DNA of 44,738 bases, taken from a virus. The notes beneath the pieces are model-generated. The model saw only the letters and a list, made by a program, of their open reading frames with translations. It made no database searches and was not told the origin of the DNA. This document shows positions 6,599 through 41,674 of this stretch, one piece after another. Both the position numbers and the translations under genes were made by a program. Position 1 is the stretch's first letter, and each line of letters opens with the position of its first letter. The stretch is from the IMG/VR virus record IMGVR_UViG_3300046529_000389, positions 1 to 44,738 of that record; one strand, written 5' to 3'.

Positions 6599-6813
6599 CC
6601 GTCCGCTACATGACCGATATAATTAATTCATATTTCTGCCCCTTATGTCTTGTAACCGACAGTTGATGGTGAAACACTAACCATTGCGCGGCCACTGGTC
6701 CGGCTGATCCCCGGGCAACGAGCCGCTCTTTCACTGCCCTCGCCTCCCATAGGGGCTTAGGCGGCGCCGCGCACTTTTAACCCTTGTGGGAGGGGGTCAT
6801 ATGGGAGGTGATT
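6599..6813. other. intergenic region before the replication initiator
   Basis: No convincing gene. It holds an AT-rich patch with TATAAT at 6618-6623, but no -35 box at the right distance. The last bases carry a near-perfect Shine-Dalgarno (GGGAGGTGATT, 6803-6813) that fixes the TTG start of the next gene. Confidence 0.5.
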
Positions 6814-7485
6814 TTGCCGCGTATCCGCACAATCAAACCAGAGTTTCCGCAGTCAGAATCAATGGGCCGGGTCTCGCGAGATGCCCGGCTTTTGTTCATC
6901 CAGATTTGGACCCTGTGCGACGATTCGGGAAAGTCTCGCGCATCCTCGCGAGCCCTCGCGAGCCTTCTCTACCCTTTCGACAATGACGTAAATACACTTA
7001 TTGAGGGTTGGTTGGATGAGCTTGAGAAAGAGGGCTGCATCCGCCGATATCGGATAGATAGCACCACTTACCTAGATATACCTAACTGGTTGAAACATCA
7101 AAAGATTGACCATCCTTCTAAGTCCCGAATACCGGACTTTCGCGAGGACTCGCGAATCTTCGCGAGTGTGTCGCGAACCCTCGCGACTGACCTAGGACCT
7201 AGGACCTTAGAAGATACACAGGAGGTTTTAGAAGATAAAACCTCCTGTGCAGATTTCGATTTGAAGGCAAGGCTCTTTGGCGATTGCACCAGTTGGTTAT
7301 CAGCTACTAACGGTGGTCAGCCGGACAAGTACCGTGCTCAAATCGGAAAATGGATTCGCGATCACGGCACCGAAAAAACATTTGCTGCTTTTTTTGATTC
7401 GCAAAAAGAAAACCCGCAAGGTGATCGCGTCGCGTACATCACCCGCGTACTGACACCCCGCCCGAAGAGGGTGCCACAGATATGA
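6814..7485 (+). CDS. phage replication initiator / replisome organiser-like protein (223 aa)
   Basis: The N-terminal half (residues about 1-100) matches the pattern of phage O-type and DnaD-like initiators: PRIRTIKPEFPQSESM, then a winged-helix core with RLLFIQIWTLCDDSG, LASLLYPFDND and GCIRRYRIDSTTYLDIPNWLKHQ in separate blocks. A poorly conserved linker follows, and a C-terminal domain of about 75 residues may contact the helicase. It should bind the origin and load the primase-helicase encoded immediately downstream. The start is TTG 6814, since GGGAGGTGATT precedes it directly and the protein then begins like its relatives. The linker-coding DNA contains the origin-like array described separately. 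Confidence 0.8.
   Translation: MPRIRTIKPEFPQSESMGRVSRDARLLFIQIWTLCDDSGKSRASSRALASLLYPFDNDVNTLIEGWLDELEKEGCIRRYRIDSTTYLDIPNWLKHQKIDHPSKSRIPDFREDSRIFASVSRTLATDLGPRTLEDTQEVLEDKTSCADFDLKARLFGDCTSWLSATNGGQPDKYRAQIGKWIRDHGTEKTFAAFFDSQKENPQGDRVAYITRVLTPRPKRVPQI
6874..7186. other. helically phased TCGCGA palindrome array, putative origin iterons
   Basis: TCGCGA occurs at 6874, 6946, 6956, 7140, 7150, 7160, 7171 and 7181. CTCGCG at 6935 adds a partial site in phase with the second group. Spacings within the groups are 10, 10, 10, 11 and 10 bases, one helical turn. Since ten is not a multiple of three the sites fall in different codon frames, so protein coding alone does not explain the phasing. An origin inside the initiator gene has the lambda O gene as precedent. 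Confidence 0.65.
7191..7249. other. 7-bp direct repeats and 13-bp perfect hairpin next to the phased array
   Basis: CCTAGGA, CCTAGGA and CCTTAGA run head to tail at 7191-7211. A perfect inverted repeat follows: CACAGGAGGTTTT at 7217-7229, a 7-base loop, and its complement at 7237-7249. TTAGAAGATA appears twice, at 7207 and 7228, 21 bases apart. The hairpin could be a single-strand initiation site, part of the origin, or an mRNA structure that affects translation of the helicase gene downstream. Confidence 0.6.
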
Positions 7486-9179
7486 ACCTCGCCGAAAAAC
7501 TTTCCTCGAACGGCATTCGCCTGAGCAGCTACGCGAACGGCAGTTACAAAATTCGCTGCCCGCAATGCTCCGACCGGCGCAAAGACAAAAACGATCCTTG
7601 CCTGTCGGTGACAGTCAGCGACGAAGGCGCTGTGTGGAAGTGCTGGAACGATTGCGGCTTTGTTGGCGCCGTGAATGACCGCGAGCCAGCGCAGGTTGTT
7701 CGCTTCAAGACTCGGCCAAGTGAGATACCAACCATCGGGCCGATCTTCCACGACGCAATGCGCTTCTTCGAATCGCGCGGCATATCCGCGCAAACACTTC
7801 GGGAAGCTGGTGTCGGATGTTGCTCAACGTTCATTCCAGCGAAGCAAGCGGTTGTTCCCTGTGTCGCGTTTCCTTATCGCGAACCGGGCGGCGCCATCGT
7901 CAACATCAAGTTTCGCACGCTCGATAAGCAATTCGCTCAGGTGAAGGGCGCTAAAAAGATTTTGTTTGGGTGGGATCGCGTGAATCTCGATGAAAGCCAA
8001 CTCGTGTTATGCGAGGGCGAGATTGATGCGCTCTCGCTTACCGAGGCAGGCGTTGTCAACGCATGTTCGGTTCCTGATGGCGCATCGGATCGCAAGTGGG
8101 AATTTCTCAACGACCCGGAGTTAGCCGACTTCAAGCGCATCGTCATTGCGGGTGATCGCGACGAGAAAGGCGAAGTTCTCAGTACAGAGCTTGCGAGGCG
8201 CTTTGGCTTCGAGCGTTGTTGGAAGCCAGCGTGGCCGGATGGATGCAAAGACGCGAATGATGTTCTCGTGAAGCACGGCAAGGAAGCGCTTGAAACTTGC
8301 ATTGCTCTCGCTGCGCCGTTTCCCGTCGAAGGTTTGCATATCGCCGACGAGTACGAACCCGATTATTGGGAATTGTATGATGGCGGTCGCCGTCGCGGAC
8401 TAAGCACCGGATGGCCTAGCGTCGATAAGCGCATGACAATTCGCGGCGGTGAGTTGTCGGTTGTCACCGGGATACCGGGCAGCGGAAAATCGGAGTTCAT
8501 CGATGCTGTTTGCGTCAACATGGCAAACTCGCATCAATGGAAATTTGCGTTGTGTAGTTTTGAAAATCCTCCCGAGGAACACTTAGCGAAGTTGGCGGAA
8601 AAATACATTGCCCGACCATTCTTCGATGGTCCAACTCAACGCATGAGCAGGCAGCAAGCCGCTGACGCGCTGCTTTGGGCGCGTGATAGATTTTTCTTCA
8701 TTCGGTCGAAAGACGACGCAATAACCGTGGGATGGATTTTAGAAAAAGCACGCGCGGCGGTTATCCAGTACGGCGTCAAAGGGCTGGTGATTGATCCGTA
8801 CAACGAGATCGAACATCAGCGACCGCCCGGCCTGACCGAAACCGAATACGTGAGCGACATGCTCAATCGCATTAAGCATTTTGCGCGCAACCACGATCTG
8901 CATGTTTGGTTCGTCGCACATCCAGCAAAGCCAATGCGAACGCGCGAAGGTGATTATCCAGTGCCGAGCCTTTACGACATCAGCGGATCGGCGAATTGGA
9001 GCAACAAGGCGGATATCGGCGTTGTCGTTGAGCGCCACTTCGAGGAGAACAATCGCAGCGTAACGATTCACGTCAAAAAAGTTCGCTTCAAGTCGATTGG
9101 CATTGCGGGTACCGCCCGGCTTGAGTACGACCGCGCAACCGGAATTTATTCTGAACCAGAGATTGGATTTGATTCATGA
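7482..9179 (+). CDS. bifunctional primase-helicase (T7 gp4 / Twinkle-like)
   Basis: Makes primers and unwinds DNA at the fork. In order: an N-terminal zinc-binding domain with CPQC at 26-29 and C54/C58, a TOPRIM primase fold with CEGEIDALSL at 177-186 and GDRDEKG at 224-230, then a RecA-like SF4 helicase with Walker A GIPGSGKS at 330-337, Walker B LVIDPYNE at 435-442, and WFVAHP at 476-481. The length of 565 residues is normal for the family. The ATG overlaps the initiator stop (ATGA). No phage DNA polymerase is recognisable nearby, so host polymerase is probably recruited. Confidence 0.93.
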   Translation: MNLAEKLSSNGIRLSSYANGSYKIRCPQCSDRRKDKNDPCLSVTVSDEGAVWKCWNDCGFVGAVNDREPAQVVRFKTRPSEIPTIGPIFHDAMRFFESRGISAQTLREAGVGCCSTFIPAKQAVVPCVAFPYREPGGAIVNIKFRTLDKQFAQVKGAKKILFGWDRVNLDESQLVLCEGEIDALSLTEAGVVNACSVPDGASDRKWEFLNDPELADFKRIVIAGDRDEKGEVLSTELARRFGFERCWKPAWPDGCKDANDVLVKHGKEALETCIALAAPFPVEGLHIADEYEPDYWELYDGGRRRGLSTGWPSVDKRMTIRGGELSVVTGIPGSGKSEFIDAVCVNMANSHQWKFALCSFENPPEEHLAKLAEKYIARPFFDGPTQRMSRQQAADALLWARDRFFFIRSKDDAITVGWILEKARAAVIQYGVKGLVIDPYNEIEHQRPPGLTETEYVSDMLNRIKHFARNHDLHVWFVAHPAKPMRTREGDYPVPSLYDISGSANWSNKADIGVVVERHFEENNRSVTIHVKKVRFKSIGIAGTARLEYDRATGIYSEPEIGFDS

Positions 9180-41561: not shown

Positions 41562-41674
41562 CTCCGTCTACTGATTGATCTGATGAGAACGCAGAGAATG
41601 AGATTAGTCGGGATCATCCCAAACACGACGGCCCCAATAATCTGCATGGCGACGCCTGCGGATAAGTGATCCAT
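41558..41674 (-). CDS. small membrane protein, end of right minus-strand operon (38 aa)
   Basis: One hydrophobic helix, MQIIGAVVFGMIPTNLILCV (residues about 10-29), with a basic end (RSISRRS). AGGAAGGG lies before the ATG at 41674. Its last bases overlap the 3' end of the rightward gene at 41289-41561. It is too short for most gene finders, but codon spacing and ribosome binding site support it. Confidence 0.55.
   Translation of the reverse strand: MDHLSAGVAMQIIGAVVFGMIPTNLILCVLIRSISRRS

Follow-up and report, generated by a model that had tools for sequence, protein, structure and literature searches.

Replication origins located inside the gene encoding their own initiator are known from phage lambda (PMC5043065, PMC7466680), from the phages TP901-1 and Tuc2009 (PMC8965321) and from pSK41 (PMC5703833). 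The lambda origin lies between the parts of the initiator gene that encode the DNA-binding N-domain and the C-terminal part (PMC5043065; PMC7466680), and has four iterons, consisting of 19-bp imperfect inverted repeats with starts 20–24 bp apart, and an A+T-rich opening region. In the lactococcal P335 phages TP901-1 and Tuc2009, the replisome organizer (ORF13 and Rep2009, respectively) binds direct repeats in its own gene, which constitute the ori (PMC8965321); in the accessible part of that source, no code relating a residue to a box is reported. In pSK41-type RepA_N initiators, the N-terminal ~120 residues bind Rep boxes in the central part of rep, and the segment that codes for the ori doubles as a linker (PMC5703833). 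Origins with DnaA boxes and a DnaA-trio show duplex-bound boxes followed by a short-period, strand-specific repeat, which is associated with the idea of single-strand capture (PMC10797057).

The locus analyzed here belongs to a stretch of viral DNA of 44,738 nt (IMG/VR virus record IMGVR_UViG_3300046529_000389, positions 1 to 44,738), which is referred to below as the window. The following features were distinguished:

6814..7485, plus strand: replication initiator gene, TTG start, 223 aa, matching PHROG 2149 and other replication initiation families
6936..6961, no strand: Site I, TCGCGC (6936), TCGCGA (6946) and TCGCGA (6956), 10 bp apart
7108..7110, plus strand: codon for Asp99, the residue covarying with the box sequence
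7140..7186, no strand: Site II, five TCGCGA boxes in the linker, starting at 7140, 7150, 7160, 7171 and 7181
7190..7216, plus strand: Array 2, GGA-repeat tract, short here: ACCTAGGACCTAGGACC, then TTAGAAGATA
7217..7249, no strand: perfect inverted repeat with 14-bp arms and a 5-nt loop, CACAGGAGGTTTTA GAAGA TAAAACCTCCTGTG
7482..9179, plus strand: primase/DnaB-like helicase gene, matching PHROG 239 (E 7e-96) and Pfam DnaB_C and Toprim

Comparison with described origins

The likeness to the lambda ori in gene O, which had been pointed out in the first-pass annotation, is apt as far as the layout is concerned: the candidate origin occupies the same position between the N-domain and the C-terminal part, and dyad boxes are followed by a strand-asymmetric, purine-rich tract and then by an inverted repeat (PMC5043065, PMC7466680). 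Under the codon-shuffle null applied here, the lambda O gene gave four iteron cores versus 0.2. Unlike lambda, the present locus has dyads of 6–7 bp spaced 10–11 bp apart, a second array ~190 bp upstream and GGA repeats instead of A+T-rich DNA. By sequence, the initiator does not group with the lambda O family, its PHROG matches being to other initiator families, and no Pfam match to any family, that of lambda O included, was obtained up to E 0.1.

The arrangement described above for the pSK41-type RepA_N proteins, with a DNA-binding N-terminal part, central boxes and an origin-coding segment that doubles as a linker, recurs here, and the best PDB fold match of the N-domain is a Rep-DNA complex (5kbj), the match being weak (E 0.013). 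The present locus differs in belonging to a phage and not to a plasmid, in its boxes and in its GGA tract, and no sequence homology to pSK41 RepA indicative of RepA_N membership was found among PDB chains, none of which scored below E 0.6 in a sequence search with the initiator profile A3. As regards TP901-1 and Tuc2009, the viral fold neighbours of the initiator in BFVD are phage replication proteins and proteins labelled 'replisome organizers'; the likeness of the repeats concerns their position. The succession of boxes and a strand-specific repeat also recalls the DnaA-trio, but the initiator is a different one and the repeat unit is 5–8 nt long and contains GGA; with GGA spacings of 5, 6, 7 or 8, and not 3, the tract does not belong to the DnaA-trio (BUS) type.

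Among open-licence papers, we found no description of a TCGCGA phage origin or of an architecture of this kind. An intragenic origin is thus of a known kind, and this family is distinguished by the size and helical phasing of its boxes, by having a second array and a GGA tract, and by the residue-99 code.

Initiator gene and genomic context

The initiator gene probably starts at the TTG at 6814 and not at 6784; homologues of its product begin with MARIRTIKPEF. The protein matched the profile of PHROG 2149 (replication initiation proteins) over residues 12–135 with an E value of 1.1e-27, and is composed of a winged-helix N-domain (~residues 1–115), a linker encoded by the candidate origin, and a separate helical C-terminal part. 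The AlphaFold pLDDT was ~97 over residues 20–90, and in our reading of the predicted secondary structure, the N-domain would consist of a helix-turn-helix plus a two-strand wing; the PDB fold search gave no strong match to this domain. The primase/DnaB-like helicase encoded directly downstream is likely to be recruited to the origin.

A Dcm-type C5-cytosine methyltransferase gene is present at 581–1378. When the first 25 kb of the window were compared with phage records by megablast, no match was returned. The cumulative GC skew of the whole window has its minimum at 7602, which adjoins the proposed origin, and its maximum at 41612 (block-shuffle P 0.006 for the range); since most genes to the left of ~5.3 kb are encoded on the opposite strand, gene orientation confounds the skew and its minimum was discounted as evidence.

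TCGCGA sites in the window

TCGCGA occurs 41 times in the whole window, versus 28.9 times expected from shuffles. Eight of these sites lie in 6874–7186 (at 6874, 6946, 6956, 7140, 7150, 7160, 7171 and 7181), with spacings of 10 bp between 6946 and 6956 and of 10, 10, 11 and 10 bp from 7140 to 7181, and no pair of sites 10–11 bp apart was found outside 6946–6961 and 7140–7186 in the whole 44.7 kb. The site count therefore confirmed the eight palindromes and their spacing in two groups, as annotated in the first pass, and agreed with the statement that no other phased group exists. The view of the eight sites as a single array held only for the five phased boxes at 7140–7186: those at 6946 and 6956 form a separate conserved array, and the site at 6874 stands alone, being present in 7 of the 94 close relatives described below versus 6.2 by codon shuffle, which corresponds to chance and is expected from coding.

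The null consisted of synonymous permutations of the codons within the initiator gene (100,000 shuffles). A shuffled gene typically carried ~1 TCGCGA site; the maximum was six sites and the longest phased run four, so that neither eight sites nor a run of five was reached in any of the 100,000 shuffles, and an alternative null in which codons were drawn from the phage's own usage had the same outcome. The boxes of Site II occupy frames 2, 0, 1, 0 and 1, which means that the phasing does cross codon frames, and the fact that codon-preserving shuffles never yielded such an array argues for selection on the DNA, as had been suggested. The idea survived this null as well as the comparison with close relatives, nearly all of which have kept the array.

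Conservation of the two arrays among relatives

When viral and genome contigs were scanned, 105 nonredundant relatives were obtained, 94 of which are close. In these 94, the 200-nt linker following the winged-helix domain carries 228 TCGCGA sites versus 34 ± 6 by codon shuffle, and 101 pairs 10 bp apart versus 1.1; further spacing peaks occur at 20, 21 and 31 bp, and the boxes use all three reading frames. All 186 phased TCGCGA pairs counted at 92 nonredundant loci fall within the initiator gene, the flanking DNA (559 kb) containing none. In the relatives, phased linker boxes come first, followed by a coding-strand GGA-repeat tract and often a short hairpin, and distant initiators show the same layout with other box sequences.

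Site I lies within the winged-helix coding sequence. The box at 6946 was found in 86 of the 94 relatives and that at 6956 in 87, versus 5.7 and 2.6, respectively, expected by codon shuffle, and the third box, TCGCGC at 6936, is degenerate. In a synonymous scan, codons 42, 45, 46, 48 and 49 of Site I were identical in all 28 relatives examined. On these counts, the 6946/6956 pair is an extremely conserved element separate from the linker array. The distance from the last box of Site I to the first box of Site II is mostly 193–195 bp, with smaller groups near 184 and 204–205 bp, and these classes differ by about one helical turn. Codons 93, 94 and 98 (TTG, AAA and ATT, within 7088–7108, codons 92–98) are also synonymously conserved in the relatives, in which residue 94 itself varies; 7088–7108 may hold another DNA element, located between the two arrays.

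The C-terminal parts of the initiators (L001–L030) are largely unrelated, while their N-domains are 55–70% identical; this points to an exchange of modules behind the conserved N-domain and origin, perhaps in accordance with the helicase or loader used. In a genome bin of Rhodocyclaceae UBA1310, an initiator relative is found on each of four contigs (L053–L056), which possibly represent several prophages or phages binned together. In Bordetella phage vB_BaM-IFTN3 (L142), the relative is annotated as an HNH endonuclease, which may reflect either a fusion or an annotation error.

Covariation of residue 99 with the box sequence

Residue 99 was compared with the type of box present in the same gene in 172 nonredundant initiators. 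Asp99 was associated with TCG(n)CGA boxes (143 vs 0) and Asn99 with TCA(n)TGA boxes (19 vs 1), giving a Fisher probability of 7e-24, and Ser99 or Gln99 was found with TCC(n)GGA in three cases out of three. Among the N-domain columns, residue 99 carried the most information on the box type (0.58 of 0.71 bits, the next column reaching 0.42). None of the boxes covers the residue-99 codon, and coding therefore does not force this link. Contacts between Asp and cytosine and between Asn and adenine are textbook ones.

In the winged-helix coding part of the actinophage genes, boxes matching those of the linker were counted 135 times versus 43 expected in the case of the CG type and 15 times versus 2.4 in that of the CA type; the box type in the Site I region thus matches that of the linker, and the other type shows no such excess. 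The close relative L123, which carries Ser99, has phased TCCGGA boxes, and its Site I lacks TCGCGA. On a tree from which residue 99 had been excluded, the residue changed ~10 times and the box ~11 times, and five of the five independent pairs agreed, which, the pairs being few, gives a sign test p of 0.06. These sequence comparisons make it a well-supported view that the initiator itself reads the boxes, the covariation being the strongest evidence for it and independent of the array. What the sequence itself shows is the array, the selection acting on it as DNA, the association with the initiator family and the covariation.

In the actinophage initiators L270, L292, L298, L302, L303 and L394, residue 99 is Asn or Lys and the boxes are different (CTCATGCAAATTGCATGAG in L270); further specificities therefore exist.

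GGA-repeat tract and hairpin

Directly after Site II, the coding strand carries a GGA every 5–8 nt (GGACCTA, GGATCAA, GGAAGG, GGAACAGG), the dominant spacings being 5 and 7. Chains of at least four GGA were found in 84% of the proteobacterial-type and 98% of the actinophage-type initiators, versus 8–10% by codon shuffle, and a TCC chain in 0% of the initiators, so that the tract is strand-specific. The units GGACC, GGATC, GGAAGG and GGAACAGG have a G+C content of roughly 45–60%, as read from the sequences, and the tract is not an A+T-rich DNA unwinding element. We propose that it may be a strand-opening or single-strand capture element. It counts against the origin reading that the tract is short in the window (two GGACC units plus AGAAGA) and, unlike known unwinding elements, not A+T-rich.

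The inverted repeat at 7217–7249 has a DNA fold z of -7.7, and a 14-bp stem was reached in none of 2000 codon shuffles. In the relatives, perfect stems of at least 6 bp are enriched within 50 nt after the tract (25 vs 8.7 and 15 vs 5.0), the enrichment being no longer clear at 50–100 nt; the hairpin is therefore enriched but not universal. The inverted repeat also contains AGGAGG and its complement CCTCCT, and could also affect translation or transcription.

Alternative explanations

The boxes might be operators at which the initiator acts to repress or tune transcription of its gene, in which case the origin would lie elsewhere. Initiators often autoregulate, and a protein bound at Site I, ~130 bp into the gene, could conceivably block elongation. 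However, the sites lie deep in the gene and not at a promoter, an operator would need neither the conserved strand-specific GGA tract nor the frequent hairpin which follow Site II as in the lambda ori, and the precedents with sites in such a position are origins (lambda, TP901-1/Tuc2009 and pSK41; PMC5043065, PMC8965321, PMC5703833), which makes this explanation improbable. It is highly improbable that the repeats are a recombination hot spot serving the exchange of modules between conserved N-domains and variable C-terminal parts: the lambda ori is also a module boundary, and the unrelated C-terminal parts behind N-domains with 55–70% identity among relatives would fit this picture, but it leaves Site I, the covariation of the boxes with residue 99 and the strand polarity of the GGA tract unexplained, and such exchange might be a side effect of an origin.

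As palindromes of 6 bp in a phage with a C5-cytosine methyltransferase gene, the boxes might also be sites for modification or restriction avoidance, by the Dcm-type enzyme for example; but helical phasing would make no sense in such sites, the phased pairs are confined to one gene, and TCACTGA or TCCGGA replace the boxes together with residue 99, so that we give this explanation very little credence. Lastly, the linker protein is of low complexity and its gene encodes repeated short words, and what was selected in Site II might be the repetitive, charged protein sequence (SREDSR, LAS and similar) and not the DNA. This explanation is practically negligible: the array is lost in shuffles that preserve the protein, its boxes hold their DNA phase while cycling through the three reading frames, the codons of Site I are locked synonymously and the box sequence tracks residue 99. 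Protein-driven repeats were accordingly rejected on the basis of the codon-preserving null.

Proposed origin and its significance

The region is very probably an intragenic lambda-type replication origin of this initiator family, located inside the initiator gene. The likely origin annotated there in the first pass is supported by the shuffles, the relatives, the replication gene context and the covariation with residue 99, and DNA synthesis would start in the Site I/II region. In the mechanism that we envisage, the winged-helix N-domain of the initiator would bind the TCGCGA boxes encoded in its own gene; as every box is a dyad, the bound form is probably a dimer. Given the spacing of 10–11 bp, successive initiators would lie on one face of the DNA helix. 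The initiators would assemble into a compact nucleoprotein complex covering Site II and, ~190 bp upstream, Site I, possibly bridging the two sites by looping; alternatively, Site I could serve as an operator with a regulatory function. This complex would strain the DNA and open it within or next to the GGA tract just downstream, where the hairpin may also play a role, and the opened DNA would be loaded with a helicase, which here is probably encoded by the next gene.

We lean slightly towards the broader view that these loci represent an apparently undescribed and widespread class of phage origin, in which phased dyads of 6–7 bp form two arrays in one initiator gene, residue 99 of the winged helix determines the base at the third half-site position (Asp-G/C, Asn-A/T, Ser-C/G), and a strand-specific GGA repeat would take the place of A+T-rich DNA in opening the duplex or capturing a single strand. 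With such a GGA tract, the question arises as to how an origin opens without A+T-rich DNA. The origins of most phages are unknown; with the present sequence signature, the origin can be located in phages of both Proteobacteria and Actinobacteria. Well-used mycobacteriophages are among these, and their gene bears no annotation other than 'RepA-like' or 'hypothetical'. A single residue, at position 99, predicts the base read by the initiator.
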